Below are positions 1,310 through 13,481 of a stretch of 27,036 nt of DNA, in pieces. Below the pieces are notes generated by a model, which saw nothing but the letters and a program-made list of their open reading frames with translations, was not told the DNA's origin and ran no database searches. Position 1 is the first letter of the stretch. Each line of letters starts with the position of its first letter. The DNA comes from a virus, in IMG/VR virus record IMGVR_UViG_3300027573_000099, positions 1-27,036 of that record. One strand, given 5' to 3'. A program made the position numbers and the translations under genes.

Positions 1310-2179
1310 ATGAGCCTACCGTGGTTCCGCATGTATGCGGAATTTGCGAAAGACCCGAAAGTGCAAAGCATGGACGAAACATTGCAGCGCCGACTCGTCA
1401 TGATGTTCTGCCTCAAATGCTCTGAGGAAATAAATCTAAGCCACGACGAACTCGCTTGTGCCATGCGCATTTCAAGCGAGGAACTTGAAACAACGCTGGA
1501 AGTATTTCGACGTAAAGGATTCATGGACGCGAACGACGAAATAGTCAACTGGGAGAAGCGACAGCCTGTTTCTGCCAACAGCACGGCACGGGTGCGCAAG
1601 TATCGCGAACGGCAAAAGAAAAGACCAAACAAAACAATACCTAACAATCCTGAAACGGCGAGGAAACGTTTCAGTAACGGCGAGGTAACGGCCTTAGATA
1701 CAGATAAGACCGCTTGCGCGGCAGATGGAGACGCAGACCGAGACGCAAAAAACGTGGTATCGGAAAGTCCTTCACACGGAAAACTATCGACACGTAGTGA
1801 ATCATTAGTACATCGCGTCGCCAAAAAGAAAGCGACGCGACGCTCACAAAAAAAACAGCCCACTTTCGACTTCGAAGAACTGAAGCGAGTCTACCCGAAG
1901 CGTGCAGGCGGACAATCATGGAATCGAGCACTGCGCGCCTGTAACACGCGACTGAAAGGCGGTGAGGATTGGCAAACGATCATCGAAGGAGCGCGACGAT
2001 ATGCCGCGTGGTGCGACGCCACAGACACAACCGGCACCGAGTTCGTCAAACAGGCTGCCACGTTCTGCGGCCCTGACAAACATTACCTAGAACTGTGGGA
2101 AGTGCCGCGCAACAAAGGCGAGCGTCGATTCGAGAAAAATGTTGCAGCCTCAGTGGAGTGGTTAAATGAAACAGCATGA
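1310..2179 (+). CDS. Phage replication initiator / replisome organiser-like protein
   Basis: This 289-residue protein has an N-terminal winged-helix-like part (residues 1 to about 85), then STARVRKYRERQK, a basic motif common in lambda O-like and DnaD-like phage replication proteins. A low-complexity lysine- and serine-rich linker covers roughly 100-185. The C-terminal domain has YPKRAGGQSWNRALRA and ARRYAAWCD...FVKQAATFCGPDKHYLELW, typical of phage replisome organisers. The expected role is binding the origin and recruiting the helicase loader. It overlaps the next gene by 14 nt, which fits an initiator/loader pair. The ribosome binding site is AAGGGG. Assigned by motif and context. Confidence 0.75.
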   Translation: MSLPWFRMYAEFAKDPKVQSMDETLQRRLVMMFCLKCSEEINLSHDELACAMRISSEELETTLEVFRRKGFMDANDEIVNWEKRQPVSANSTARVRKYRERQKKRPNKTIPNNPETARKRFSNGEVTALDTDKTACAADGDADRDAKNVVSESPSHGKLSTRSESLVHRVAKKKATRRSQKKQPTFDFEELKRVYPKRAGGQSWNRALRACNTRLKGGEDWQTIIEGARRYAAWCDATDTTGTEFVKQAATFCGPDKHYLELWEVPRNKGERRFEKNVAASVEWLNETA

Positions 2180-2669
2180 AAAGCAAAAATTTCTGGAAGT
2201 GATGAATCGATTAGGCGCAGTTTTCAAAGAGGACATAACTAAAGACTTGCTCGCTGCCTATTGGGATTCGTTCGCTGACTGGACATTTCCAGAGTTCAGC
2301 GAAGCGGCGACGCACCTTACACGCACGTGCGATTTTTTTCCTCGACCATCTGCGTTTGAAAAACTTCGCAAGGCTGCACAGACGAGTCCGCGCGAGGCAT
2401 GGCAACGTGCGATGGATCATGCAACTGGCGTCGGTAGCGATTGGCGCAAGTCTCGTACTTGCGGCGATGAACGGATCGACAAGGCGGTCGGCGTTATCGG
2501 TGGCTACGAAACTCTCGCTCTTGAGCCTATGTCTGAGCACCAGTGGCTGAGTAAGAAATTCATGGACGCGTATGCAGATATTGCCGAAGTCGAGACTGCG
2601 CGCAACGTAGCGCGACTCAGCGACGACACGGTGGCGAAACGGCGGATCGGACATGACGACGACGAATAG
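2166..2669 (+). CDS. Probable helicase-loader-like replication protein
   Basis: This 167-residue protein starts inside the end of the replication gene (14-nt overlap) with GGAG upstream. The N-terminal helix bundle, MKQHEKQKFLEVMNRLGAVF followed by LLAAYWDSFADWTFPEFSEA and DFFPRPSAFEKLRKA, resembles small phage loader proteins of the lambda P / G39P type, with the recurrent 'FP.P..F' turn. Such proteins bring the host DnaB helicase to the initiator complex. There is no Walker motif, so it is not a DnaC-type ATPase. The last residues are acidic. The gene ends in TAG, which shows that TAG is an ordinary stop in this genome. Confidence 0.65.
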   Translation: MKQHEKQKFLEVMNRLGAVFKEDITKDLLAAYWDSFADWTFPEFSEAATHLTRTCDFFPRPSAFEKLRKAAQTSPREAWQRAMDHATGVGSDWRKSRTCGDERIDKAVGVIGGYETLALEPMSEHQWLSKKFMDAYADIAEVETARNVARLSDDTVAKRRIGHDDDE

Positions 2670-2904
2670 GATCTGCATGTGCGGCGCATCGCCGGCGAAG
2701 TTCGACATCAACGAAACCTGTGGCGGCAAGTGGGCATACGGTACGCCGAACTGCTGTGGCGAATGGATGTTCGAGTTTCGGAATCACTACACGACCGATG
2801 CAATCGAACAGCAAAAACTCGCTGGCATTGCATGGAACAATCTTCCGCGTGGATTACACGACGAACTACTTGAAGCACTGCAATCTGATCCGGCAAACAA
2901 CTGA
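2653..2904 (+). CDS. Small cysteine-containing phage protein
   Basis: This 83-residue ORF overlaps the preceding gene by 17 nt. It contains CMCG near residue 9 and a CGG...PNCCGEW pair near 23-37, which could hold a metal, then a helical segment (DAIEQQKLAGIAWNNLP). Another possible start is ATG at 2677, with AGGA close upstream, which would drop the first eight residues. I do not recognise the family. It is followed after 10 nt by the next gene with a good GAGGG site. Confidence 0.6.
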   Translation: MTTTNRICMCGASPAKFDINETCGGKWAYGTPNCCGEWMFEFRNHYTTDAIEQQKLAGIAWNNLPRGLHDELLEALQSDPANN

Positions 2905-2914
2905 GGGCGAATAA

Positions 2915-3487
2915 ATGAAAACGGAACTATGCGGGAAGCACATCGACACGCTGCGCGAGTGGCGCGTGACCTGTGGACTGCCGAAGGATCACGAAGGCTA
3001 CTGCGTGACCATTGCCATTGGTGGCGCAGGCGGAGGCGGTACTGACGGCAGACAGTTCGCAGCGACTGAACAGTTAGTGACAATCGAAGAACGAGTCGCG
3101 TATGTGCCGCTTGTAATCGGCGACGGCGGGAGTACGCCGAAGCGAGACTCCGCGATCACGCCGCGCGAGGCGTTCGAGGCTGGATTCCAAGTCGGCGTCA
3201 ATTGGATCGCGGATAGTTCCGACGAAACATCCAAGTCAAAACGCATCGAACTCTCATGGGAACACTTTCAAGCCGCGCGCATGAAAGCGGCGGCATCGAC
3301 TGAGGAATCGTCATGCGAAGGACGGCGAAGATTAACGCCAGACGAGGCCGAGGCAACTTCACCGAAGCACTCACGAGACTGTGAGTACGTGACAAGTGAC
3401 GGACCTGCACCTTGCACATGCAAGCCAAAATATCCGCCCGGCGCGGACATGAAAGGCGCGACATCGACTGAGGAACCCTGCGGATGA
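2915..3487 (+). CDS. Hypothetical protein carrying the AFEAGF...RMKAA module
   Basis: This 190-residue protein starts with MKTELCGKHI, where C..H and a later C (residue 20) suggest a small metal site. A glycine-rich linker follows, then a module EAFEAGFQVGVNWIA...IELSWEHFQAARMKAA (about 88-126) that recurs almost unchanged in the next gene. The C-terminal part (CEYVTSDGPAPCTCKPKYPPG) has CxC and another cysteine. The function is unknown. The stop overlaps the next start (ATGA). Ribosome binding site is GAGGG. The repeated module suggests duplication and reshuffling between neighbours. Confidence 0.65.
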   Translation: MKTELCGKHIDTLREWRVTCGLPKDHEGYCVTIAIGGAGGGGTDGRQFAATEQLVTIEERVAYVPLVIGDGGSTPKRDSAITPREAFEAGFQVGVNWIADSSDETSKSKRIELSWEHFQAARMKAAASTEESSCEGRRRLTPDEAEATSPKHSRDCEYVTSDGPAPCTCKPKYPPGADMKGATSTEEPCG

Positions 3488-4612: not shown

Positions 4613-5380
4613 CTAACCTGCCTGCAGTAGGTCTGTTGCAAGCAAGGACTTGGCAGGATCTTCGATCCCAGCATCAGCGAACCCGCGTGATCGCAACAGA
4701 CAAGCGTGGCAGTGACCGCAACCAACCGTTACAGATCCGTCGTCATGGACCGTACCGCGCAACCCGTTGTAGCAAGTGTGCGACAGACCGACGAGTTCCA
4801 TTCCGAATTCGGTATCGCGCGCAAGTCGCACCGTGTCCGCCTTGCTCAAGTAGATGAGCGGCGTTTCGATTACAACATTCTGTAGAGAATCGTCTAGATA
4901 TAGACCGCGATTGAGAGAGGTCTGCATCGCTTCCATGAATGTAGAGCGGCAGTCCGGGTAGCCGCCGAAGTCCTCTTGACTAACGCCGGTCACTAACAAG
5001 AACGGGTCTCCGTCGAAGTGAACGTACCCTCGGCTGGCCGCGATGGCTAGGAACAGAATATTGCGACCGGGGACAAACGTTTTTTCCAGACCGCCCGGAA
5101 GTGTGTCTGCCGATTCGTACAGTTCGACCACTTGCTCCCTGTTTGTCAACGGACTCGTGCCGATCAGAACATCAGGCACCTTCACCAGATCGTGTGGTAT
5201 ACGACGACCTGATAACTGGCTTGCGCGTTCGATGATTGCGACCGCCTGAACCAACTCGATCCGATGCCTTTGGCCGTAGTCGAACGTGACCGCCCGCACA
5301 TTGTCGTAGGTGTGCAGCGCACAAGCCAAACAGGTTGCACTGTCCTGCCCTCCTGAGAGGACAACCATCGCGTTTGTCAT
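4613..5380 (-). CDS. queC: 7-cyano-7-deazaguanine (preQ0) synthase
   Basis: The 255-residue protein has every hallmark of QueC, the ATP-dependent ligase-like enzyme that turns 7-carboxy-7-deazaguanine and ammonia into preQ0. The PP-loop SGGQDS is at residues 9-14, FVPGRN at 102-107, and QEDFGGYPDCR at 135-145. The zinc site is Cys203 plus the CGHCHAC cluster (221, 224, 227). In phages queC usually supports 7-deazaguanine modification of the genome as protection against restriction. Its start overlaps the stop of the ArcS-like gene (ATGA), so the two are coupled. No folE, queD or queE is visible here; the precursor may come from the host or from genes outside the window. Confidence 0.93.
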   Translation of the reverse strand: MTNAMVVLSGGQDSATCLACALHTYDNVRAVTFDYGQRHRIELVQAVAIIERASQLSGRRIPHDLVKVPDVLIGTSPLTNREQVVELYESADTLPGGLEKTFVPGRNILFLAIAASRGYVHFDGDPFLLVTGVSQEDFGGYPDCRSTFMEAMQTSLNRGLYLDDSLQNVVIETPLIYLSKADTVRLARDTEFGMELVGLSHTCYNGLRGTVHDDGSVTVGCGHCHACLLRSRGFADAGIEDPAKSLLATDLLQAG

Positions 5381-6408
5381 TGTCGTGTCCGTTGTTCGTT
5401 GAAAAAGTAGTACACCGGGTCAGTAAGGCCGTGGTAGCCGGCCACATGTGAGAAGTCAGAAGTCAGCGAGGCGGACAGGCACGCCAGCGCGGTGCGTCCC
5501 ATGAGGTCCTCGTAGTCGTAGTGAAAGTTGATCGGTCTAGTGAATTGGATACTCGGCTGCGCAGGCACAGGCGGAGTACCGACAGACCATCCGAGCAACT
5601 GAAACGCGCGCAGTAGCGACAGGCTGTAGTAGTCGGTGTGGCAGACGATGCGTTTGTAATGCGCTCGCCACTTGTGAAAATACCACGCGGCAACATGCAT
5701 CAGTCGCCATTCATTCGGAATGCCGCTGTCGTAGTGAGGCATGAAGTCCCACAGGTCGCGCGGCACGAGACCGAGTACGCCAGTTGCATTCATTATGTCC
5801 CACGAATCGTCCGGCAGAGCATCTATGACCATCTGGTGCAACGGACTTGGATAAGGCTTGTCGGCAGCGCAAGGCACGAGCACCAAGTTCGGCGCGCGCG
5901 GTACATAGTGCTTGAGTTGATCCATGTACTCGAATATCTCGGCACGGAAAAACGAGCCGTTGCAAGTGACCGAGAAGTCACGAAGCGAAGTCGCGAACAC
6001 GCCACGCTCGGTCCGCGGTGCGCGCCACTGACAGTCACACTTCCATAGCGCATCGACCGTCTCAGGCCGCATCGCGCAAAACGCCTCGAGCGCCGTTCTG
6101 TCGCGCGCGCGCAGGGGCGCGCCCACGAACGATGCCACGCTTTCAGCGATCACCCGATCTTCGTGGAACGCGATTGTGGCCGCGCCAGAGAATTGTGCGC
6201 CTAACGCGTGCAGCAGTGGACGCCACGTCGGCGGTGCGTTCTCCACCGTGACATCGAAGTCCAGTGAGGCATAGGCAACGGACTTAAACAGTCCCATGAA
6301 GCCACCGTAGCGATCCTCATAGCGACCGGGCGCATTGAGTTGTTGGCCTGCGTCGAAGACCAGTGGCTGGCGTGGCCGGTCGGCTGCTGACGGATGAGAC
6401 GTTGGCAT
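5377..6408 (-). CDS. ArcS/DUF5591-like protein, probable partner in 7-deazaguanine DNA modification
   Basis: From ATG at 6408 this gives 343 residues. The N-terminal ~170 residues are not recognised (LWKCDCQWRAPRTERG near 122-135). The C-terminal half has VLVPCAADKPYPSPLH (176-191) and GVLGLVPRDLWDFMPHYDSGIP (210-231). These match the PCSA.KPYS..SH and LG.VPR.L....P..YD..V signatures of the DUF5591 domain of archaeosine synthase ArcS, which acts on preQ0 in tRNA. Coupled to queC, it is a good candidate for inserting or remodelling preQ0 in phage DNA, either as a diverged DpdA-type transglycosylase or as an ArcS-type modifier; I cannot tell which. The frame stays open upstream to 6585, but that stretch looks non-coding. 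Confidence 0.7.
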   Translation of the reverse strand: MPTSHPSAADRPRQPLVFDAGQQLNAPGRYEDRYGGFMGLFKSVAYASLDFDVTVENAPPTWRPLLHALGAQFSGAATIAFHEDRVIAESVASFVGAPLRARDRTALEAFCAMRPETVDALWKCDCQWRAPRTERGVFATSLRDFSVTCNGSFFRAEIFEYMDQLKHYVPRAPNLVLVPCAADKPYPSPLHQMVIDALPDDSWDIMNATGVLGLVPRDLWDFMPHYDSGIPNEWRLMHVAAWYFHKWRAHYKRIVCHTDYYSLSLLRAFQLLGWSVGTPPVPAQPSIQFTRPINFHYDYEDLMGRTALACLSASLTSDFSHVAGYHGLTDPVYYFFNEQRTRQ

Positions 6409-6476: not shown

Positions 6477-6546
6477 CGCCCCGCCCCATGCCCCCAAATC
6501 GCGCAGAATCGCGCAGGGCGCGCGATCCCTCGCGCCCCGCCCCATG
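6477..6546. repeat. GC-rich repeats between divergent units
   Basis: The 14-mer CGCCCCGCCCCATG is at 6477-6490 and 6533-6546. Between them AATCGCGCAG is repeated in tandem (6497-6506, 6507-6516), and GGGCGCG (6516-6522) pairs with CGCGCCC (6531-6537). This dense cluster in a non-coding gap could be a control region or an origin; no function can be shown. Confidence 0.6.
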
Positions 6547-6586
6547 ACATGTCGTCGCACGACTCAACGTTGACGCGGCCCACAAT

Positions 6587-6623
6587 TCGTTGCCTGTGAA
6601 ACATTACTCGTTGCCTATGAAAC
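6587..6623. promoter_or_regulatory. Candidate operator: TCGTTGCCT(G/A)TGAAAC direct repeat
   Basis: Two 16-bp copies differing at one base lie at 6587-6602 and 6608-6623, 21 bp apart (two helical turns), directly upstream of the -35 of the rightward promoter at 6627. This is a typical arrangement for an activator or repressor that controls the small-gene block. Confidence 0.5.
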
Positions 6624-6626
6624 CTT

Positions 6627-6655
6627 TTGGTGACACGGAGACGGCGCCGTATAAT
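6627..6655 (+). promoter_or_regulatory. Rightward promoter for the small-gene block
   Basis: A perfect TATAAT (6650-6655) is preceded at 17 bp by TTGGTG (6627-6632). It is the only clear promoter before the long run of small genes starting at 7071. The weak -35 next to paired direct repeats suggests regulation by a bound factor. Confidence 0.55.
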
Positions 6656-6699
6656 GACGACGTGACAACGTATCCCACAAACGATGAACGACGCACGAA

Positions 6700-6972
6700 G
6701 TGCCCCGACGTGAGTCACGGCACGCGTACATCATCGACCCATGCGCACGCGACGACGACGGTCCTCAGCCGAAACGAATCGCGCACGCGCATGGCGACCC
6801 GGGGTTTCAACGTTGTCCGTCTGATGGGAGACGAACAGGAAGTCCCATCGTCCGCCGGTCCGCATAGTGGGGTCGGGCTACACGAAGTTTCAGAGGTTCG
6901 TGTAGCAACCGTTTAGTCGGTCGGTCGGCGCCAGCCGACGCGAGAACCGAAACGGGGAGGGGAATTAACCCC
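6700..6972 (+). ncRNA. Candidate structured leader or non-coding RNA with six hairpins
   Basis: Six perfect inverted repeats follow one another: GTGCC plus GAC (6700-6709) with GTC and GGCAC (6714-6723); CCATGCGC (6739-6746) with GCGCATGG (6787-6794), plus inner CGCGA/TCGCG; GATGGGA (6823-6829) with TCCCATC (6843-6849); CTACACGAA (6878-6886) with TTCGTGTAG (6897-6905); GTCGGC (6924-6929) with GCCGAC (6934-6939); GGGG (6959-6962) with CCCC (6969-6972). They lie between the promoter at 6627 and the first gene at 7071. A 108-codon frame is open over most of it but has no ribosome binding site or recognisable protein. It could be a regulatory leader or a separate RNA. Confidence 0.5.
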
Positions 6973-7013
6973 AAGCATTTTCTCAAACCCGCTCACCAGT
7001 TTTGGATTTCATT

Positions 7014-7047
7014 ATGAGCCGTTCGCGACGACGCGAGTGGCACTCAT
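7014..7047 (+). repeat. Intercistronic two-stem hairpin, divergent first copy
   Basis: Outer arms ATGAG (7014-7018) and CTCAT (7043-7047), inner CGCG/CGCG around ACGA. The AACTGAGGA ribosome binding motif follows before the ATG at 7071, as in the later copies. Confidence 0.5.
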
Positions 7048-7070
7048 GCAATTCAAACTGAGGAACGACA

Positions 7071-7259
7071 ATGAACGCAGTAGCAATCGAAGCAAAGAAA
7101 AATCTGTTACGGATTCTTTGCGATGCACCAAACGACGCAGAAGTTTTAATCACGCGGAGTTTGAAAAACTTTACCGAAGTTTGCGTTTTCAAAGGCGCGT
7201 GTCTGTATGCGAAGTTTCGCGTCAGTAAGAGAACAGGTACGGTCGTCAGGCAGATTTAA
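7071..7259 (+). CDS. Small hypothetical protein, first of the hairpin-spaced array
   Basis: This 62-residue protein (MNAVAIEAKKNLLRILCDAP...) has a helical N-terminus and a basic, beta-like second half (VCVFKGACLYAKFRVSKRTG). The start is fixed by AACTGAGGAACGACA just upstream, the motif shared by the whole array. An overlapping frame from 7037 is its shadow. Family not recognised. Confidence 0.7.
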   Translation: MNAVAIEAKKNLLRILCDAPNDAEVLITRSLKNFTEVCVFKGACLYAKFRVSKRTGTVVRQI

Positions 7260-7264
7260 ACCGA

Positions 7265-7317
7265 GTGGATTTTCCAAACGCATTGCTTAGGCAATGCGTT
7301 TGCTGATTTTCATTCAC
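7265..7317 (+). repeat. Intercistronic two-stem hairpin
   Basis: Outer arms GTGGAT (7265-7270) and ATTCAC (7312-7317), one G-U pair. Inner perfect 11-bp stem AAACGCATTGC (7276-7286) with GCAATGCGTTT (7291-7301), loop TTAG. The AACTGAGGA motif follows. Confidence 0.75.
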
Positions 7318-7338
7318 CATCAACTGAGGAAACACAAA

Positions 7339-7563
7339 ATGGAAAATCAATTCGAAGTATCGCATGGAATTTGGTGCCGCGTATCGGGCGGCGTCACCGG
7401 CACTCGCGAAGCATGGCTTCGTGAGGCTGGCAAGCAATGGGTCGGCACGCACGAGCAAGCCGAACAATACGCGAACAAGTTGCACACCGCAGCACAAAAA
7501 CGCGACGGCCTCACATCGTACAGTTACAAAGCACGAGCACTTTCCGAGCGCAGTTACTACTGA
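7339..7563 (+). CDS. Small hypothetical protein
   Basis: Start at 7339 (MENQFEVSHGIWCRV) is chosen because CAACTGAGGAAACACAAA directly precedes it; the frame remains open to 7294, inside the hairpin. The 74 residues have a tryptophan-rich start and then a helical stretch (HEQAEQYANKLHTAAQKR) followed by SYSYKAR. It looks like a compact alpha/beta fold that I cannot name. Confidence 0.7.
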   Translation: MENQFEVSHGIWCRVSGGVTGTREAWLREAGKQWVGTHEQAEQYANKLHTAAQKRDGLTSYSYKARALSERSYY

Positions 7564-7569
7564 ACAAAA

Positions 7570-7616
7570 GTGAATAACTCGGGAGCATTCGCAAGAATGC
7601 TCCCTCTGATATTCAC
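7570..7616 (+). repeat. Intercistronic two-stem hairpin, GTGAATA class
   Basis: Outer arms GTGAATA (7570-7576) and TATTCAC (7610-7616). Inner stem GGGAGCATTC (7581-7590) with GAATGCTCCC (7595-7604) and a GCAA tetraloop. Seven bases after the preceding stop; CAACTGAGGA follows. Confidence 0.85.
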
Positions 7617-7634
7617 CAACTGAGGAACGACAAA

Positions 7635-7868
7635 ATGAATACCAAAGAAGCAAAAGAAATCGCGAAAGAGTTTCCGAAAATCGAACTCTGGTGGGATCGG
7701 CACATCAAGTTGTGGACGATCACGCCCGCGAAAGGTTACGACGGCCCAGCGGATTACATTCCTTCGGGATGGTTTCCTGACATGACCGACGACGAGTTGC
7801 GCGCGAACTTCGCATACAACTCGGACAACTACGAAGCATGGTCGTCAAAAGCGACCGCATACCGCTAG
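7635..7868 (+). CDS. Small hypothetical protein
   Basis: This 77-residue acidic protein (MNTKEAKEIAKEFPKIELWWD) has a helical start, an aromatic core (KLWTITPAKGYDGPADYIPSG) and MTDDELRANFAY. The start is set by the array motif. It ends in TAG. No known family recognised. Confidence 0.7.
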   Translation: MNTKEAKEIAKEFPKIELWWDRHIKLWTITPAKGYDGPADYIPSGWFPDMTDDELRANFAYNSDNYEAWSSKATAYR

Positions 7869-7871
7869 AAA

Positions 7872-7917
7872 GTGAAAGCCTCAAGCCCGTTCGATGAGCG
7901 GGCTTTTTGATTTTCAC
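7872..7917 (+). repeat. Intercistronic two-stem hairpin, GTGAAA variant
   Basis: Outer arms GTGAAA (7872-7877) and TTTTCAC (7911-7917): the outer stem has changed on both sides relative to GTGAATA/TATTCAC. Inner AAGCCCG/CGGGCTT with a TTCGATGAG-type cap. CAACTGAGGA follows. Confidence 0.85.
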
Positions 7918-7938
7918 CAATCAACTGAGGATACAAAC

Positions 7939-8166
7939 ATGGCACACGCATTCAACATCGACACCGCACCGTCTGCACAAGTTCAAGCAATGATGATGCT
8001 CGAAAAGGTGCTTGACGTTTCAAGCAACTGGCAAACGGGCAGCGATCACGACGAAGCATGGAACGCGCATACGAACAAGGCGGGCGAGCATTGGTACATC
8101 GTCGTCGATTCAGACGGCAGCATCGATCATGTACGCAACCACGAAGCAGGCGAGTCGACTTGGTAG
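7939..8166 (+). CDS. Small hypothetical protein
   Basis: Start at 7939 (MAHAFNIDTAPSAQVQAMM) follows AACTGAGGATACAAAC; the frame is open to 7894 inside the hairpin. The 75 residues have a helical N-terminal half and a WYIVVDSDGSIDHV strand-turn-strand near the end. It ends in TAG. Family unknown. Confidence 0.7.
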   Translation: MAHAFNIDTAPSAQVQAMMMLEKVLDVSSNWQTGSDHDEAWNAHTNKAGEHWYIVVDSDGSIDHVRNHEAGESTW

Positions 8167-8174
8167 CAGCAAAC

Positions 8175-8216
8175 TGAACCACCATGTCCGTTCAATCGAG
8201 CGGGCATGTTAGTTCA
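8175..8216 (+). repeat. Intercistronic two-stem hairpin, TGAAC class
   Basis: Outer arms TGAAC (8175-8179) and GTTCA (8212-8216), a CACC/GTTA internal loop, inner ATGTCCG with CGGGCAT (one G-U pair). AACTGAGGA follows. Confidence 0.8.
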
Positions 8217-8246
8217 ATCCGAACTGTATCAACTGAGGAAACAAAC

Positions 8247-8438
8247 ATGTCACGCAAAGACTACATTGAACTCGCCAACGTTATCGCTGGTTGCAAACTG
8301 CCCGGTTACGGCAAGGCTGCCGAAGCAGCGAACGCGACACGACGCACCATTGCGCGCGAACTCGCGAGCATATGCAAACGCGACAACCCGACCTTCGACC
8401 GCGAACGTTTTCTTGACGCTTGCAACATGACGGACTGA
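8247..8438 (+). CDS. Small conserved-type phage protein
   Basis: From ATG 8247, 63 residues: MSRKDYIELANVIAG then TIARELASICKRDNPTFDRERFLDAC. The pattern 'KDY..IA..I......R......LA..C..DNP.FDRERFL.AC' is one I recall from many unrelated phage genomes as a hypothetical protein. Helical throughout, no catalytic motif. The start is set by the array ribosome binding motif; the longer frame from 8184 overlaps the hairpin. Confidence 0.75.
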   Translation: MSRKDYIELANVIAGCKLPGYGKAAEAANATRRTIARELASICKRDNPTFDRERFLDACNMTD

Positions 8439-8443
8439 CACAA

Positions 8444-8485
8444 TGAACCACCAAGCATTCGCGCAAGCGAGTGCTTGTTAGTTCA
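8444..8485 (+). repeat. Intercistronic two-stem hairpin, TGAAC class
   Basis: Outer TGAAC (8444-8448) and GTTCA (8481-8485), CACC/GTTA internal loop, inner AAGCA and TCGC paired with GCGA and TGCTT, GCAA tetraloop. AACTGAGGA follows. Confidence 0.85.
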
Positions 8486-8509
8486 ACCCACATCAACTGA
8501 GGAACGACC

Positions 8510-8617
8510 ATGACCAACGAACTTCTGGAACTACTCGCGCTGTTGGCGAGGCACGACGATCAACTGGCCGCGCAAATTCTCGCGCATGTCAAACACGAAA
8601 CGCCAGCGAGTGAATGA
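8510..8617 (+). CDS. Very small leucine-rich helical protein (35 aa)
   Basis: A 35-codon gene, too short for most gene finders, lies exactly where the array spacing predicts one: hairpin, AACTGAGGAACGACC, then ATG at 8510. The product (MTNELLELLALLARHDDQLAAQ...) is one amphipathic helix with regularly spaced leucines. Its TGA stop forms the first three bases of the next hairpin. Function unknown; a helical interaction peptide is possible. Confidence 0.65.
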   Translation: MTNELLELLALLARHDDQLAAQILAHVKHETPASE

Positions 8618-8655
8618 ACCACCAAGCCCGTGCGATGCGCGGGCTTGTTAGTTCA
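8615..8655 (+). repeat. Intercistronic two-stem hairpin, TGAAC class
   Basis: Outer TGAAC (8615-8619) contains the preceding stop codon and pairs with GTTCA (8651-8655). Inner AAGCCCG/CGGGCTT capped by GCGATGC. Identical to the copy at 9305-9345. Confidence 0.85.
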
Positions 8656-8680
8656 ACGCAAACCAACTGAGGGTTAGAAA

Positions 8681-8896
8681 ATGAAACGCACATTAGGAAC
8701 AATCAATTCTGAAATCCGACAACTGTTTGCTGACAACGATGTGGTTGTGGACGGACCGGGCATCGAAGCATTCGAGAACGCGTGTGAAGATCTCGCGGAA
8801 GTCAATCCAAAAGCGGCAGCGCGCATGAATAAGTTGGCAGACGAATGGGACGTAGCATTCGCCAAGACTGCGCCGCGGTCGTACTGGAACAAGTAA
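8681..8896 (+). CDS. Small acidic hypothetical protein
   Basis: This 71-residue helical protein (MKRTLGTINSEIRQLFADN) has an acidic middle (IEAFENACEDLAEVN) and aromatic end (WDVAFAKTAPRSYWNK). The ribosome binding motif is AACTGAGGGTTAGAAA, the one copy where AGGA is replaced by AGGG. Family unknown. Confidence 0.7.
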   Translation: MKRTLGTINSEIRQLFADNDVVVDGPGIEAFENACEDLAEVNPKAAARMNKLADEWDVAFAKTAPRSYWNK

Positions 8897-8902
8897 CGAA
8901 GC

Positions 8903-8948
8903 GTGAATAACTCGGACGCACTCGTTGAGCGCGTCCTTTGATATTCAC
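8903..8948 (+). repeat. Intercistronic two-stem hairpin, GTGAATA class
   Basis: Outer GTGAATA (8903-8909) and TATTCAC (8942-8948); inner GGACGC/GCGTCC plus CTC/GAG with one A-C mismatch. CAACTGAGGA follows. Confidence 0.85.
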
Positions 8949-8965
8949 CAACTGAGGAACGACCA

Positions 8966-9304
8966 ATGAGCAACATGAGTTACTGCCGGTTTCAAAACAC
9001 GCTGTCCGATCTGCGCGACTGCGCAAACGCATTGCGCGACGGAGCAGGATCACGCAGCGACGAGGCGAAAGAAGTGCTTGATGATCTGACAATGCTGCGC
9101 GCCAAACTCGACAAGATGCGCGACGAAGGCAAGGAAGGAACGCCCGAGTACGAGGAAGTTTTGGAAGACTACGATCATGGTCAGGAAGAATACGACGAAC
9201 TGCTCGACAACGAACTGATGCTTGATGCAGAAGAAACGCGCGCGAAGGACGCGCTGATCGAACTGTGCAAAGAAATCGCCGAAGACTTCGGCGACGAAGA
9301 TTAA
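8966..9304 (+). CDS. Conserved-type acidic phage protein (MSNMSYCRFQNT family)
   Basis: This 112-residue protein starts MSNMSYCRFQNTLSDLRDC, an N-terminus I recall from many phage hypothetical proteins. The remainder is strongly acidic and helical (LDDLTMLRAKLDKMRDEGKE, EEVLEDYDHGQEEYDELLD), probably coiled coil. Its function is not established to my knowledge. The start and spacing follow the array rule. Confidence 0.8.
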   Translation: MSNMSYCRFQNTLSDLRDCANALRDGAGSRSDEAKEVLDDLTMLRAKLDKMRDEGKEGTPEYEEVLEDYDHGQEEYDELLDNELMLDAEETRAKDALIELCKEIAEDFGDED

Positions 9305-9345
9305 TGAACCACCAAGCCCGTGCGATGCGCGGGCTTGTTAGTTCA
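9305..9345 (+). repeat. Intercistronic two-stem hairpin, TGAAC class
   Basis: Outer TGAAC (9305-9309) and GTTCA (9341-9345), directly after the preceding TAA. Same 41 bases as 8615-8655, and the identity continues through ACGCAAACCAACTGAGG. Confidence 0.85.
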
Positions 9346-9369
9346 ACGCAAACCAACTGAGGAACGACA

Positions 9370-9561
9370 ATGTACTACGAAATAAATGTTAGCAAAAACG
9401 GCAAGCACTTTTTCGCGACGCACGAACGGTCACTGACTAACCTGATCAAAACGTCGGCAGCACTTGAGGTATTCAGAAAAGTATTTCCTAGCGAAGAAGG
9501 CTACGACTTGCGCGTGACACGATACGAAACGCACGGCTACGAAGTTGCGTTTACTGAGTGA
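9370..9561 (+). CDS. Small hypothetical protein
   Basis: This 63-residue protein reads MYYEINVSKNGKHFFATHER, a beta-hairpin-like start, then a helix (TNLIKTSAALEVFRKVFPSEEG) and a strand (YDLRVTRYETHGYEVAF): a small alpha/beta fold. Its TGA is inside the outer arm of the next hairpin. Family unknown. Confidence 0.7.
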   Translation: MYYEINVSKNGKHFFATHERSLTNLIKTSAALEVFRKVFPSEEGYDLRVTRYETHGYEVAFTE

Positions 9562-9604
9562 ATGACTCAAGCCCGTTGGCGACAGCGGGCTTTCTGATAT
9601 TCAC
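9558..9604 (+). repeat. Intercistronic two-stem hairpin, GTGAAT class
   Basis: Outer GTGAAT (9558-9563, containing the stop TGA) and ATTCAC (9599-9604); inner AAGCCCG/CGGGCTT. CAACTGAGGA follows. Confidence 0.8.
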
Positions 9605-9621
9605 CAACTGAGGAACTACCA

Positions 9622-9837
9622 ATGAACAAACGCCAACTGTCCGTTGCGAACGACGCCTACTTGGAAATGTTTTGCACCGATATGGAACTCACCGATAGTC
9701 AGCGCGTAGAACTGCGCAGCGTCAAGACGGTGCATCATCTGTGGGACATACGCGACAAGCAGGACGAGGACGACGAGGACGGATACAGCGAAGGTCAATT
9801 CGATTGCTTGATGTGGGCAATAGAAACGACCAAGTGA
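9622..9837 (+). CDS. Small acidic hypothetical protein
   Basis: This 71-residue protein (MNKRQLSVANDAYLEMFCTD) is helical, with a strongly acidic patch (DKQDEDDEDGYSEGQ) and CLMWAIETTK at the end. Its stop is inside the next hairpin's outer arm. No domain recognised. Confidence 0.7.
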   Translation: MNKRQLSVANDAYLEMFCTDMELTDSQRVELRSVKTVHHLWDIRDKQDEDDEDGYSEGQFDCLMWAIETTK

Positions 9838-9879
9838 ATAACTCAAGCGCACGCGAGCCGTGCGCTTTTTGATATTCAC
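9834..9879 (+). repeat. Intercistronic two-stem hairpin, GTGAATA class
   Basis: Outer GTGAATA (9834-9840, containing the TGA stop) and TATTCAC (9873-9879); inner AAGCGCAC/GTGCGCTT with loop GCGAGCC. The inner hairpin is the exact reverse complement of the one at 12835-12880. Confidence 0.85.
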
Positions 9880-9901
9880 CAACCACAACTGAGGAATAGA
9901 A

Positions 9902-10279
9902 ATGACTACAAGCAAAGCAAAGCAAGAGCAAGGCCATCACTACTATGCGGCCACCGTGTTCGGCTGGAAGACCGCGGACACCCGCAAGGAAGCGCTCGAC
10001 GGACTGGTAAGTTCGTTTCGTTCGAGTCTCAAGCCGATGGTGGCGCGCGCGCAGAAGGAAGGTGGGCCGGGCGTTTACATATGGTGCTGCCGCGTTGAAG
10101 CGCCAAGCGACGCATCGTATGAGATAAGTTGGTACGTCCCGCAAGGTGTCGAGGTCAGCGAGGCTGCGGAAGTCTACGTTACCAGCATCACCGCGAAAGG
10201 TCAGGCGTACTTCGACCTGACAGCAGAAGTTGAAAAGCACAACAAACGCAAGACTCGCCAGTCGGCAGTCGGCGAGTAA
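9902..10279 (+). CDS. Hypothetical protein
   Basis: This 125-residue protein (MTTSKAKQEQGHHYYAATVFGWKTADTR) has an alpha/beta pattern: HYYAATVFGW strand, EALDGLVSSFRSSL helix, VYIWCCRVEA strand, YEISWYVPQGVEV strand, and a basic tail (KHNKRKTRQSAVGE). Array-type start. I do not recognise a family. Confidence 0.7.
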   Translation: MTTSKAKQEQGHHYYAATVFGWKTADTRKEALDGLVSSFRSSLKPMVARAQKEGGPGVYIWCCRVEAPSDASYEISWYVPQGVEVSEAAEVYVTSITAKGQAYFDLTAEVEKHNKRKTRQSAVGE

Positions 10280-10321
10280 GAAACCACCAAGCCCGTTCGC
10301 AAGAGCGGGCTTGTTAGTTTC
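10280..10321 (+). repeat. Intercistronic two-stem hairpin, GAAAC variant
   Basis: Outer GAAAC (10280-10284) and GTTTC (10317-10321), both arms changed in step from TGAAC/GTTCA. CACC/GTTA internal loop, inner AAGCCCG/CGGGCTT plus TTC/GAG, GCAA loop. Confidence 0.85.
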
Positions 10322-10340
10322 ACCAACTGAGGAAACGAAA

Positions 10341-10562
10341 ATGAAAACCGAAACGGTCTATGGCTTTGATGGGAACGGATACGGGATCGGCGACCGCGTT
10401 GAATTGCACCCTTGCACAGACCTGTGGATGCGTGGAGCGCGGTACGGCGTAGTGGTGGGCATGTCATTGACTCCGAATGATCGAGTCAAGGTCGAACTCG
10501 ACGCGAGGCCGGGGCAAGTCTTTGCAGGCAGCGCGGACACCTTTCGCGCACTGCAAGAGTGA
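10341..10562 (+). CDS. Small hypothetical protein, possible SH3-like barrel
   Basis: Start at 10341 (MKTETVYGFDGNGYGIGDRVELHP) follows CAACTGAGGAAACGAAA; the longer frame from 10230 runs through the hairpin. The 73 residues have the shape of a small beta barrel: GIGDRVELHP, ARYGVVVGMS, DRVKVELD, then a helix turn. KOW/SH3-like barrels of this shape occur in many phage accessory proteins, but the match is structural guesswork. Confidence 0.7.
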   Translation: MKTETVYGFDGNGYGIGDRVELHPCTDLWMRGARYGVVVGMSLTPNDRVKVELDARPGQVFAGSADTFRALQE

Positions 10563-10604
10563 ATAACTCAGGCGCGTTCGATGAGCGCGCCTTTTGATAT
10601 TCAC
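10559..10604 (+). repeat. Intercistronic two-stem hairpin, GTGAATA class
   Basis: Outer GTGAATA (10559-10565, with stop TGA) and TATTCAC (10598-10604); inner GGCGCG/CGCGCC plus TTC/GAG with loop GAT. All 46 bases are identical to 10827-10872. Confidence 0.85.
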
Positions 10605-10623
10605 CACCAACTGAGGAACGACA

Positions 10624-10830
10624 ATGAGGTTAACCAGAGAACAGCGTGTGTCACTAAAGCGAATCTACGAACGTCCGACCAGCACAGCAGACAGCGTGTA
10701 TCGGATCGACCTGTCACTGCGCGGGTATCGGCGATTCCGTCGCACCGTGCAACCCGGACCGGGCTGCGTCATGGTTCGATGGCAGGGCATGTGGCTCGGC
10801 ATTGAAAAAGACGGTTACGTCCACTCGTGA
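10624..10830 (+). CDS. Small basic hypothetical protein
   Basis: This 68-residue arginine-rich protein (MRLTREQRVSLKRIYERP) has a helical start, then SLRGYRRFRRTVQPG and strands MVRWQGMWLGIEKDGYVHS. The basic character is compatible with nucleic-acid contact, but no motif proves it. A frame from 10581 is a shadow. The array motif sets the start. Confidence 0.7.
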   Translation: MRLTREQRVSLKRIYERPTSTADSVYRIDLSLRGYRRFRRTVQPGPGCVMVRWQGMWLGIEKDGYVHS

Positions 10831-10872
10831 ATAACTCAGGCGCGTTCGATGAGCGCGCCTTTTGATATTCAC
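10827..10872 (+). repeat. Intercistronic two-stem hairpin, GTGAATA class
   Basis: Outer GTGAATA (10827-10833, with stop TGA) and TATTCAC (10866-10872). Perfect copy of 10559-10604 although the genes on either side are unrelated. Confidence 0.85.
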
Positions 10873-10887
10873 AACTGAGGACACCAC

Positions 10888-11094
10888 ATGAAATCCAATC
10901 AGCATTTTATCGTTCGGTTCTGGAACGGTTATAAATGGAGCGTTGTTCAAGACAAGGACTATTTTTGGGAAGCAAGGACTTGGAACTCACGCGCAGCGGC
11001 GCAAGAGTTTGCCGATGTTCACAAGCCGCAATTCGGCGGCAAGGTAAAAGTGTTCGCGCGTTTTAGTTCGCATAAAAAGTGCGAGCATTCGTGA
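10888..11094 (+). CDS. Small basic aromatic hypothetical protein
   Basis: This 68-residue protein (MKSNQHFIVRFWNGYKWSVV) is rich in tryptophan, phenylalanine and tyrosine, with a helix (SRAAAQEFADVH) between beta segments, and KVKVFARFSSHKKCEHS at the end. It resembles small single-domain phage accessory proteins in general; no family recognised. Confidence 0.7.
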   Translation: MKSNQHFIVRFWNGYKWSVVQDKDYFWEARTWNSRAAAQEFADVHKPQFGGKVKVFARFSSHKKCEHS

Positions 11095-11135
11095 TTGACT
11101 GAGGCGCATTCGATGAGTGCGCCTTCTGGCAATCA
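11092..11135 (+). repeat. Intercistronic two-stem hairpin, TGATTG variant
   Basis: Outer TGATTG (11092-11097, containing the stop) and CAATCA (11130-11135), a third outer-arm sequence that still pairs. Inner GGCGCA/TGCGCC plus TTC/GAG. AACTGAGGA follows. Confidence 0.8.
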
Positions 11136-11160
11136 TGCCAAAACAAACTGAGGAAAGAAT

Positions 11161-12261
11161 ATGAATACGAAAACAAAAGGCTTAACGCTGAACGAGTTGG
11201 CGGAAGAAATCACGCGACAGAATGCCGCGAAGTATGACTTCGTTGCCGACACTCGACACCTGACCGTTGAACCCGACAGCAGCAGTCCGACTAATCTCAT
11301 ACTGAAAGCGGGCAGCAGTGAACGGTTCCCGATCAAGCAGCACGCCATTCGACAGATGGGCACGCAACTCGCAATCCCGGCCACGTTCGTTGACCGGCTC
11401 GCAGAGTCGCACCCAGACATGCTGGCATGGAACATAAATCAGTTGTTCCAGCGCGAGCCTGCGACGCGGATGGTTCGTGTGCTGTTTGATAACGTCAGAG
11501 CGTACCTGTCGAACGGTTATCGTCCACTTGATAACTACGACTTCGCCAACGCCACATTGTCGCGACTTCAACAACTGAAAGCAGAAGTGCTGAACTGCGA
11601 CATACTCGAGAACCGCCTGTATATCAAAGCAGTCATTCCGGGCATCGAGAGAATGGTGTCGAAGGTGAAAGGCGCGTACTTCGGCGACGGCGGACACAAT
11701 CTCATCCACTTGTTCAAGCCCGGCACTTGCCTGTCGAATTCCGAAACGGGTCAAGGTTCGGTTGCGGTCGAGACAGGCACTTGGGAGAAGGGTTGCTCGA
11801 ACATGGCAATACGGTCGAGCGGTTCAATGCGCAAGTACCATGTCGGCGGCAAGTTGTCAGAAGGCGACGGCGTGCAGGAACTGTTCTCTGACGCCACCAA
11901 GATCGCAAATGACAAGGCGTTCTGGATGAAAGTGCAGGACCTCGTGACCGCTGGCCTGTCGCTCGAACGGTTCAACGCGTCAGTCGATGAGTTCGAGGCA
12001 GCCATGACAGGCAAACAGATCGAACGCCCGGCAGACGCCATCAAGGCTCTGCCAAACCTGACGGCAACTGAACAGGACGGCATTCTGGCGTCGCTCATTC
12101 AAGGCGGCGACTTGTCACAGTTCGGTATGCAGTGGGCGATAACTCACTACGCGCAGAACGAGCAAGTGAGTTTCGAGCGTCAAGTCCAACTGGAACGTCT
12201 CGGCGGCGACATAATCGAGTTGCCGAAGACCGACTGGACACGCATCGCAGAAGCAGCGTGA
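11161..12261 (+). CDS. DUF932 (TIGR03299-like) phage/plasmid protein
   Basis: At 366 residues this is the one large gene in the array. It matches the DUF932 phage/plasmid protein family: RFPIKQHAIRQMGTQLAIPATF near 55-77, MVRVLFDNVRAYLSNGYRPLDN around 100-122, then a segment with VSKVKGAYFGDGGHNLIHLF and a helical C-terminus. DUF932 proteins are widespread on phages and plasmids; their biochemical role is not settled to my knowledge. The length fits the family. It sits between ordinary array hairpins, so it seems to have been placed into the same gene cassette format. Confidence 0.85.
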   Translation: MNTKTKGLTLNELAEEITRQNAAKYDFVADTRHLTVEPDSSSPTNLILKAGSSERFPIKQHAIRQMGTQLAIPATFVDRLAESHPDMLAWNINQLFQREPATRMVRVLFDNVRAYLSNGYRPLDNYDFANATLSRLQQLKAEVLNCDILENRLYIKAVIPGIERMVSKVKGAYFGDGGHNLIHLFKPGTCLSNSETGQGSVAVETGTWEKGCSNMAIRSSGSMRKYHVGGKLSEGDGVQELFSDATKIANDKAFWMKVQDLVTAGLSLERFNASVDEFEAAMTGKQIERPADAIKALPNLTATEQDGILASLIQGGDLSQFGMQWAITHYAQNEQVSFERQVQLERLGGDIIELPKTDWTRIAEAA

Positions 12262-12271
12262 TGTAACAAAG

Positions 12272-12313
12272 TGAACCACCGTGCCACTTCGCAAGAGGTG
12301 GCACGTTAGTTCA
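12272..12313 (+). repeat. Intercistronic two-stem hairpin, TGAAC class
   Basis: Outer TGAAC (12272-12276) and GTTCA (12309-12313), CACC/GTTA internal loop, inner GTGCCAC/GTGGCAC plus TTC/GAG, GCAA loop. The inner stem is new but still fully paired. Confidence 0.85.
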
Positions 12314-12332
12314 ATCAACTGAGGAAACGACA

Positions 12333-12833
12333 ATGAATGGAAACATACCATTACACCCAAAGCGCGGTCTCGACCCGCACCTGACGTTCTGCCCGCGCTG
12401 CGGCGGCGATGCGAACGACCTCACGATAGGCCACTTGCGCCGCGTCGAACTGATAGACAACTGGGGTAGAAGTTACGATCCGAAGCAGTACGCCTATGCC
12501 AATCGCGGCGAAGGCACGCGACGCGTCATACAGGAACTGGAAAAGGCAAATCGCCGTTTCAGAGATTGGCAGGACGTACCCGAAGGCGAGCGCGTTCCAT
12601 CCAATGGACCGTGCGACAAGTGCGAGGCCGAACTGGTCGAGCACAAGGCACTGGTTGCAGCAGGTGGTATCTATTGGAACTGCAACAGTTGTTCGCAAAG
12701 TGGCGTAATTAAAGCGCAATCAGAATTGGCAAAGGCTGTGCGTCGGCACGCAGGCATTGAGGCACCGGCCCCGGTCGGTGTGCAGTTCGAAACCTGCGAC
12801 GAGCACACGCCGCGACCGATCAGCCTGACCTGA
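12333..12833 (+). CDS. Multi zinc-ribbon hypothetical protein
   Basis: This 166-residue protein has three cysteine pairs: CPRC (about 20-23), CDKC (about 93-96) and CNSC (about 116-119), the spacing expected for zinc ribbons. Between them is a charged helix (RRVIQELEKANRRFRDWQDV). Zinc ribbons of this kind often bind nucleic acid or other proteins; here there is no further clue. Array-type start and downstream hairpin. Similar to widespread phage hypothetical zinc-ribbon proteins, not to an enzyme I can name. Confidence 0.75.
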   Translation: MNGNIPLHPKRGLDPHLTFCPRCGGDANDLTIGHLRRVELIDNWGRSYDPKQYAYANRGEGTRRVIQELEKANRRFRDWQDVPEGERVPSNGPCDKCEAELVEHKALVAAGGIYWNCNSCSQSGVIKAQSELAKAVRRHAGIEAPAPVGVQFETCDEHTPRPISLT

Positions 12834-12834
12834 A

Positions 12835-12880
12835 GTGAATAACTCAAGCGCACGGCTCGCGTGCGCTTTTTGATATTCAC
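12835..12880 (+). repeat. Intercistronic two-stem hairpin, GTGAATA class
   Basis: Outer GTGAATA (12835-12841) and TATTCAC (12874-12880); inner AAGCGCAC/GTGCGCTT with loop GGCTCGC, the reverse complement of the loop at 9834-9879 with unchanged flanks. Confidence 0.85.
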
Positions 12881-12897
12881 CAACTGAGGAAAAGACA

Positions 12898-13095
12898 ATG
12901 ATTGAGCAAAGCGACCGACCACCGATAGTGGACGACAAGCACCTGACCTATCTGGACGGACTGCGTGCATCAGGCATCACCAATATGTTCGGTGCATCGC
13001 CGTACCTAACCAGAGCCTTCAAACTGACATCGCCTCAAGCACGCGAGGTGCTTCTGTATTGGATGCAGTCGTTCGAGAAACGGCACAAGCAGTGA
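12898..13095 (+). CDS. Small conserved-type phage protein (TNMFGA..YL motif)
   Basis: This 65-residue protein has YLDGLRASGITNMFGASPYLTRAF...AREVLLYWMQSF. The pattern 'YLD.LR.SG.TNMFGA.PYL...F.L....A..VL..WM.SF' is one I recall from many phage hypothetical proteins. Helical, no catalytic residues. Function unknown. Confidence 0.8.
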   Translation: MIEQSDRPPIVDDKHLTYLDGLRASGITNMFGASPYLTRAFKLTSPQAREVLLYWMQSFEKRHKQ

Positions 13096-13138
13096 ATAAC
13101 TCAGGCACACGCGCGCGCGTGTGCCTTTTGATATTCAC
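13092..13138 (+). repeat. Intercistronic two-stem hairpin, GTGAATA class
   Basis: Outer GTGAATA (13092-13098, with stop TGA) and TATTCAC (13132-13138). The inner 22 bases form a perfect palindrome starting GGCACACGCG. ACAACTGAGGA follows. Last clear copy of the array. Confidence 0.85.
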
Positions 13139-13157
13139 CACAACTGAGGATTCAGAA

Positions 13158-13481
13158 ATGAAAGTAACACTTACGATAGAAGTTAATTCGCTCATGGACG
13201 CCGCACTGATCGACGAGTTCGTCGTGCGGGAAAAGATGCAAGCCAATGTAACCATGACGACCACGCCGAATGGGCAGCAGTCACGAGGCAAGCGCAAGGC
13301 TCGCGTGATTATATCGCGTTCGCTGTTTTCGCAGATTGCGGCGGTACGCAACGAAGGTCTGTCCCATGACGAAGTAGCAAAGCGGTTCGGTGTATCGCAC
13401 GCAACGGTCGGCCGAATTTTCAATGGCAAGCATGTGCTGCAAAAGAAGGCGGCGAAGGTCGCGGCGGCGAAAAAGAAGTAG
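13158..13481 (+). CDS. Helix-turn-helix DNA-binding protein
   Basis: Start at 13158 (MKVTLTIEVNSLMDAALIDEF) follows CAACTGAGGATTCAGAA; the frame from 13059 overlaps the previous gene. The 107-residue protein has a helix-turn-helix near 65-90 (AVRNEGLSHDEVAKRFGVSH then ATVGRIFNGKHV), of the resolvase/Hin or HTH_23 type, and an alanine/lysine tail that may contact DNA. No recombinase catalytic domain is present. Being last in the hairpin array, it is a candidate regulator of this block. Confidence 0.75.
   Translation: MKVTLTIEVNSLMDAALIDEFVVREKMQANVTMTTTPNGQQSRGKRKARVIISRSLFSQIAAVRNEGLSHDEVAKRFGVSHATVGRIFNGKHVLQKKAAKVAAAKKK

Follow-up and report, generated by a model that had tools for sequence, protein, structure and literature searches.

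A probable structured leader RNA ahead of a phage small-gene array, with a loop complementary to the shared Shine-Dalgarno sequence

The gap in front of a small-gene array in a metagenomic phage probably encodes a structured plus-strand leader RNA, spanning positions 6662-6975. What lies beyond chance in this region is the fold as a whole, not the number of its hairpins. The region combines a promoter-like site, a robust non-coding fold and, displayed in an unpaired loop, a unique complement of the Shine-Dalgarno sequence of the array. From these features we infer transcription of the leader, its acting strand and pairing of the loop with ribosome-binding sites. The single mechanism that we favour, tentatively and with the existence of the leader counted as part of the claim, is operon-wide control of Shine-Dalgarno sites by this structured leader.

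Genomic setting

The window, which is the whole analysed stretch of 27,036 nucleotides, is contained in reverse orientation within the 51,104-base IMG/VR contig IMGVR_UViG_3300009678_000070. It carries tail genes (tape measure, fibre), a minus-strand DUF5591-queC pair and a plus-strand small-gene array, and the leader occupies the divergent gap between the pair and the array. In the DUF5591-queC pair at 4613-6408, queC beside a DUF5591 protein presumably points to 7-deazaguanine modification of the phage DNA. Phages often carry long rows of tiny genes without annotated function behind one promoter. The sequence CTGAGGA, present in 18 exact copies between 7058 and 14412, is used as a Shine-Dalgarno site by almost every array gene. 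The features around the leader are as follows.

4613-6408, minus strand, adjacent pair of a DUF5591 protein gene and queC
6587-6602 and 6608-6623, plus strand, two direct repeats TCGTTGCCTRTGAAAC, set 21 bp apart and immediately ahead of the -35 box
6590-6916, plus strand, open frame of 108 codons that spans promoter and leader, judged non-coding
6627-6655, plus strand, sigma-70-like promoter TTGGTG-17-TATAAT from a weight-matrix scan
6976-7056, plus strand, linker to gene 1, weakly structured (z -1.5), with a hairpin at about 7013-7047
7058-7064, plus strand, first array Shine-Dalgarno CTGAGGA, the first of about 18 such sites
7071-13481, plus strand, array of about 18 genes, most of them short, presumably the operon that the leader precedes

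Promoter and upstream repeats

A promoter upstream of the hairpins had been proposed in the preliminary description, and the weight-matrix scan agrees: TTGGTG-17-TATAAT at 6627-6655 ranks second among all sites on both strands of the 27 kb. A stricter promoter scan reported none at this position. The RNA start is predicted from the sequence at G6662, two bases before helix P1. The two TCGTTGCCTRTGAAAC repeats are probable operator or activator sites; no further copy with at most 2 mismatches occurs in the 51-kb contig. Further direct repeats are located at 6497-6516. Divergent genes and direct repeats at 6497-6516 and 6587-6623 would suit a DNA-level element of a divergent control region, such as operators or a replication origin, with the RNA fold being incidental. 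We regard this as highly improbable, since the operator-like repeats lie outside the fold and the most distinctive trait of the region is how well the plus-strand RNA ensemble is defined.

Global fold and domain architecture

The predicted fold of 6662-6975 is one robust two-domain RNA with about seven arms. For 6661-7070, the fold energy has a z of -4.62, matched by 0 of 100 shuffles; for the plus strand of 6662-6975, it is -3.8 (0 of 200). The ensemble diversity of the latter amounts to 0.068 per nt, compared to 0.226 +/- 0.073 in shuffles, none of 200 being as low, and an equally well-defined ensemble is seen in just one of 662 same-length tiles outside the leader on both strands. Of the originally described interval, 6700-6972, the right end holds (about 6973), whereas the structured part begins further left, at 6662-6664. 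The predicted elements are listed below.

6662-6818, plus strand, Domain I, three-way junction of helix P1 with arms P2 and P3; z -3.0, diversity as low in 0/200 shuffles
6664-6671/6810-6817 and 6672-6676/6801-6805, plus strand, helix P1, closing the three-way junction
6682-6736, plus strand, arm P2 of Domain I
6739-6794, plus strand, arm P3 of Domain I
6759-6771, plus strand, P3 apical hairpin with loop CCUCA at 6763-6767, unpaired probability 0.96-1.0
6820-6973, plus strand, Domain II; z -4.7, 0/200 shuffles
6822-6850, 6855-6876 and 6877-6906, plus strand, Domain II hairpins, the last a 10-bp perfect stem
6909-6955, plus strand, predicted compound arm of Domain II
6959-6972, plus strand, predicted small hairpin of Domain II

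Pair probabilities in P1 and at the base of P3 are about 1.0. The Domain I helices are unchanged at 37 C in four contexts of up to 939 nt and, within 6662-6975, also at 25 and 45 C. In the linker, CAGTTT at 6997-7002 is able to pair with the AAACTG of the first Shine-Dalgarno. A hammerhead reading of GTCTGATGGGAGACGAACAGGAAGTC in Domain II was rejected, as stems II and III are absent by inspection and Rfam gives no match.

The six perfect stems described in a row at 6700-6972 are all present; their stated lengths of 4-9 bp need correction, the longest measuring 10 bp.

6700-6723, plus strand, stem GTGCC/GGCAC, 5 bp
6739-6794, plus strand, stem CCATGCGC/GCGCATGG, 8 bp
6823-6849, plus strand, stem GATGGGA/TCCCATC, 7 bp
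6877-6906, plus strand, stem GCTACACGAA/TTCGTGTAGC, 10 bp
6924-6939, plus strand, stem GTCGGC/GCCGAC, 6 bp
6959-6972, plus strand, stem GGGG/CCCC, 4 bp

Their density, previously held to be much above that of neighbouring coding DNA, turns out to be near chance in shuffles and window tiles. Counted as non-overlapping perfect hairpins, stems of at least 6 bp number 3 in 6700-6972 compared to 1.36 in shuffles, a count that 41 of 300 shuffles attain, as do 32 of the 295 window tiles. For stems of at least 5 bp the count is 4 against 3.8, and for at least 7 bp it is 2 against 0.5 (reached by 24 of 300). Given these near-chance numbers, hairpin counting was dropped as evidence for an RNA. The share of A-rich unpaired plus-strand bases was likewise dropped as an RNA sign (0.43, compared to 0.42 in shuffles).

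The fold also bears on the earlier suggestion of an independent phage RNA, which is possible only if the RNA is processed, because no good terminator follows the fold. A separate trans-acting RNA, either cut out of the leader or terminating near 6985 and directed at host or phage targets other than the array, would be consistent with the compact, self-contained fold and the weakly structured linker at 6976-7056. We consider it decidedly unlikely: its end has no canonical terminator, UUUU lying several bases past the 4-bp stem, and the sole strong complement that we noticed is to the array itself.

Coding potential of the 6590-6916 frame

The view that the region encodes no convincing protein is upheld, and a conserved protein from the 6590-6916 frame, which would have spoken against it, did not appear. 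The frame has no Pfam or PHROG match, tblastn on 50,697 phage records gives no match even at E 1, and among viral contigs it matches only itself. At 0.06 bits per codon, its codon score falls near the bottom of the array-gene range (-0.02 to 0.40), it has no Shine-Dalgarno, and its start lies upstream of the -10 box. A home-made gene caller accepted the 6617-6916 frame, so the non-coding verdict is not absolute. This acceptance of an open frame of 100-108 codons would fit a fast-evolving protein gene at 6617-6916 or 6590-6916, which we think most improbable in view of the missing relatives, the codon score and the placement of its start.

Strand of the leader RNA

In terms of energy, the opposite strand has the lower z, with -4.9 on the minus compared to -3.8 on the plus strand for 6662-6975. 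The tile scan gives -5.3 and -3.8, respectively, and the best of its 342 tiles, 6595-6908, lies on the minus strand. The plus-strand call, which we favour, thus rests on promoter, ensemble definition and orientation. For the whole leader, ensembles as well defined are found in 0 of 200 shuffles on the plus strand and 5 of 200 on the minus strand; for the two halves, the values are 0/200 and 3/200 against 23/200 and 105/200. The AT skew of the leader (0.23) is that of the plus-strand array (0.21) rather than that of the minus-strand genes (0.06). A minus-strand RNA, or a 5' leader of the DUF5591-queC pair, would account for the energy values. It is very unlikely in our view, given its less well-defined ensemble, the skew and a weight-matrix scan in which no minus-strand promoter near 6980-7050 ranks better than 208.

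A loop complementary to the array Shine-Dalgarno

UCCUCAG at 6762-6768, comprising the P3 loop CCUCA and its closing bases, matches the array Shine-Dalgarno CTGAGGA as an exact complement. As in Shine-Dalgarno-pairing RNAs, the complement to the target sites is thus displayed in an unpaired loop. TCCTCAG occurs as a single plus-strand copy in the 27 kb. In dinucleotide shuffles of the leader it is present in 12 of 4000, and CCTCA falls wholly within a predicted hairpin loop in 14 of 4000; the match itself was spotted after the fact. A separate uniform test for 7-mer complements gives 7 of 500 shuffles for the window leader. The predicted loop-Shine-Dalgarno duplexes range from -10.6 to -15.1 kcal/mol and those of a 16S tail with the same sites from -5.9 to -9.2 kcal/mol; the former are about twice as strong, with the cost of opening the loop not charged. 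The seed is short, consisting of five loop bases and one U-G pair, and the invariant A that precedes CTGAGG in the array sites has no partner in the P3 loop. A role as a CsrA sponge was discarded, as the leader has no A-N-G-G-A.

Array spacers and ribozymes

Covarying RNA hairpins sit between most array genes. Within 7570-13139, sixteen array genes are each followed by an intergenic hairpin, and these hairpins fall into two kinds.

7570-13139, plus strand, 10 copies of the type A hairpin, GTGAATA-ACTC-variable stem-TYTGA-TATTCAC
7570-13139, plus strand, 6 copies of the type B hairpin, TGAAC-CACC-variable stem-GTTA-GTTCA

Changes on both sides of a pair are seen in 9 of 14 cases for type A and 6 of 12 for type B, with conserved internal loops. 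A search of two records recovered these hairpins in the window's own contig alone; in 26 other loci no match is better than E 0.05, and Rfam gives no match. The spacers 8613-8672 and 9303-9362 are identical over 60 nt, which reflects recent copying of a spacer module. Models R1 and R2 of types A and B score at best 4.8 and 3.3 bits on the leader, compared to 61 to 77 and 64 to 69 bits for their members, which rules out that the leader was assembled from these array elements.

Type II hammerhead ribozymes lie between the array genes of two other phages that have the 8966-9304 gene (L048, 6821-10280; L088, 7553-9560). At E <=0.01, one record of 55 kb has 11 hammerhead matches, 8 of them reaching the Rfam cut-off, and another of 58 kb has 4, with 2 at that level. 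Ribozyme copies along one operon suggest gene-by-gene cutting of the mRNA. In another locus (L043, 5371-7361), the array spacers differ from those of the window: a repeated GTCGGGGCGGTTCCCG element precedes GGAGAA sites, and Rfam gives no match.

The hairpins between array genes have a further bearing on the leader. The main rival to Shine-Dalgarno control is a put-like cis-acting antiterminator, in which the nascent leader loads onto RNA polymerase and secures read-through of inter-gene hairpins. It would suit a leader that opens a long transcript, is base-paired from about +3 onward and stands ahead of six terminator-like hairpins between plus-strand array genes. Of the 25 top-ranked promoter-like sites before 13 kb, the one at 12894 is the only plus-strand site within the array. 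In a study of put, such elements act over at least 10 kb without a protein (PMC9378689). We judge this rival reading unlikely. Many of the intergenic hairpins have no strong U tract and show conserved outer stems and internal loops instead. The leader is about 310 nt long, compared to about 70 nt for put. The boxA-like motifs [CT]GCTCTT[TA] and CTCTT[TA]A are absent from 6656-7070. A blastn comparison of the leader with 2.5 kb of the HK022 early region gives pieces no better than chance (E >=1.4), in a coarse test in which the put sites were not pinpointed. The put- or nut-like element of the preliminary description therefore receives no positive support from boxA, HK022 similarity or size, and it is the six terminator-like array hairpins that keep the idea alive.

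Array-upstream regions in other phages

For comparison, we used phages sharing the 8966-9304 gene. From 80 loci, those with no plus-strand gene called at the match, with no boundary before the contig end or with gaps below 250 nt were dropped, yielding 24 distinct gaps of at least 250 nt upstream of the array, in 35 tiles. Many of these gaps are unremarkable. The lowest z among the 35 tiles (-5.2) belongs to the 320 nt preceding the array of L012, a locus that also shares the window genes at 11161 and 12898. These 320 nt are the last part of a 1.2-kb gap before the array (1981-3156) with little coding signal. Upstream of the array of L017, 5017-5350 forms two long imperfect hairpins with the same GAACTCCAGGCTCAAG arms (z -5.8 on the plus and -4.6 on the minus strand).

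In L088, the best promoter of the locus is located about 400 nt ahead of the first array gene, and the leader is moderately structured (z -2.5 on the plus strand). It contains two tandem AAACCTCC copies, at 6356 and 6365, the complement of the GGAGGTTT of its array; five positions of the locus carry the array site in the form GGAGGTTTT. These tandem repeats pair with the site of the first gene as well. Two AAACCTCC copies are found in 0 of 5000 shuffles of the L088 leader, a parallel that was found after the fact.

In the uniform test across the 24 other regions, only L012, L017, L056 and L088 share a 7-mer complement with at least two genes, and none is striking, their scores being reached by 300, 108, 34 and 39 of 500 shuffles, respectively. 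A general rule that array leaders carry an anti-Shine-Dalgarno is unsupported across these 24 regions. A summed 7-mer excess (11 against 2.4) was left unused, as it came from A/T-rich 7-mers without a Shine-Dalgarno core.

Search for relatives of the leader

The leader RNA is an orphan of one metagenomic phage contig. By blastn, it has no match in phages and plasmids or in 82 loci recruited through array genes, and none was found in 8 related records. Tail-fibre relatives (L093-L098) have 49-76% of that protein in common, and the leader region is not shown there. Routes via the queC-side gene, the array genes, the phrog_1362 gene, the tail fibre and the array hairpin pattern yielded no homologous leader; several related contigs end short of the region. 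A single-sequence structural model of Domain I matches only itself in 90 sources (1.16 Mb) and, across 12 records, only the window's own contig. Rfam gives no match at the gathering score for the whole window, nor at E up to 10 for 6560-7080, and the 10-bp hairpin pattern finds nothing in genome contigs. The matches in L099 and L102, inside seemingly ordinary genes, were judged to be due to chance. As no relative was found, fold and loop stand without support from covariation or conservation.

Proposed role of the leader

The earlier proposal of a leader that controls the array gains support from the promoter, the orientation, the fold, the lack of a strong terminator before gene 1 and the loop complement of the Shine-Dalgarno. 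We postulate that 6662-6975 would be the structured 5' part of the array mRNA, made on the plus strand from the 6627-6655 promoter, and that it most likely sets the strength of array translation. The P3 arm would display CCUCA/UCCUCAG to the Shine-Dalgarno sites of almost every operon gene. Since the loop complements this common sequence, the leader could cover those sites, either in cis or, after being cut off, in trans. Their release may come later, for example through processing, through competition by ribosomes or through dilution by accumulating mRNA.

A leader that addresses a common ribosome-binding site would provide simple joint control of a gene row and would explain the uniformity of the sites. 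A bolder version, rather unlikely as we see it, is an operon-wide switch in which one loop addresses the Shine-Dalgarno that all operon genes were selected to share, so that one RNA sets the translation of about 18 genes together. L088 would have arrived at this logic independently, using tandem complements and a different Shine-Dalgarno. In part, the additional conserved bases flanking GAGG would then code for the leader and not for the ribosome. Should the Shine-Dalgarno mechanism be wrong, what remains is an orphan RNA of the phage, about 310 nt long, whose predicted fold is unusually well defined.

Comparison with known systems

GOLLD and ROOL are associated with phages. Like these two and OLE, the leader is a structured bacterial RNA of unexplained role; those RNAs are large, and the leader differs in being much smaller, in lacking an Rfam match and in having the array directly after it (PMC12286853). 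Like HK022 putL and putR, the leader is a non-coding RNA at an early-type transcript start, before terminator-like hairpins, and putL pairs from its third base on, as the start of the leader likewise does (PMC9378689). Put forms two stem-loops in about 70 nt and has conserved residues that are known, whereas the leader is roughly four times longer and is built from a three-way junction and further arms.

A literature search returned no phage leader with an operon-wide anti-Shine-Dalgarno, a negative that carries little weight. In staphylococcal RNAIII and RsaA, C-rich apical loops pair with Shine-Dalgarno sequences (PMC2837412, PMC3961350). The leader resembles these in being a larger stable RNA with an apical loop that complements ribosome-binding sites, and differs from them in that its presumed targets are the roughly 18 genes of its own operon, reached via one common 7-mer. 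Phage leaders with a regulatory loop are already known; new would be that a single loop serves the ribosome-binding site shared throughout the long operon behind it.
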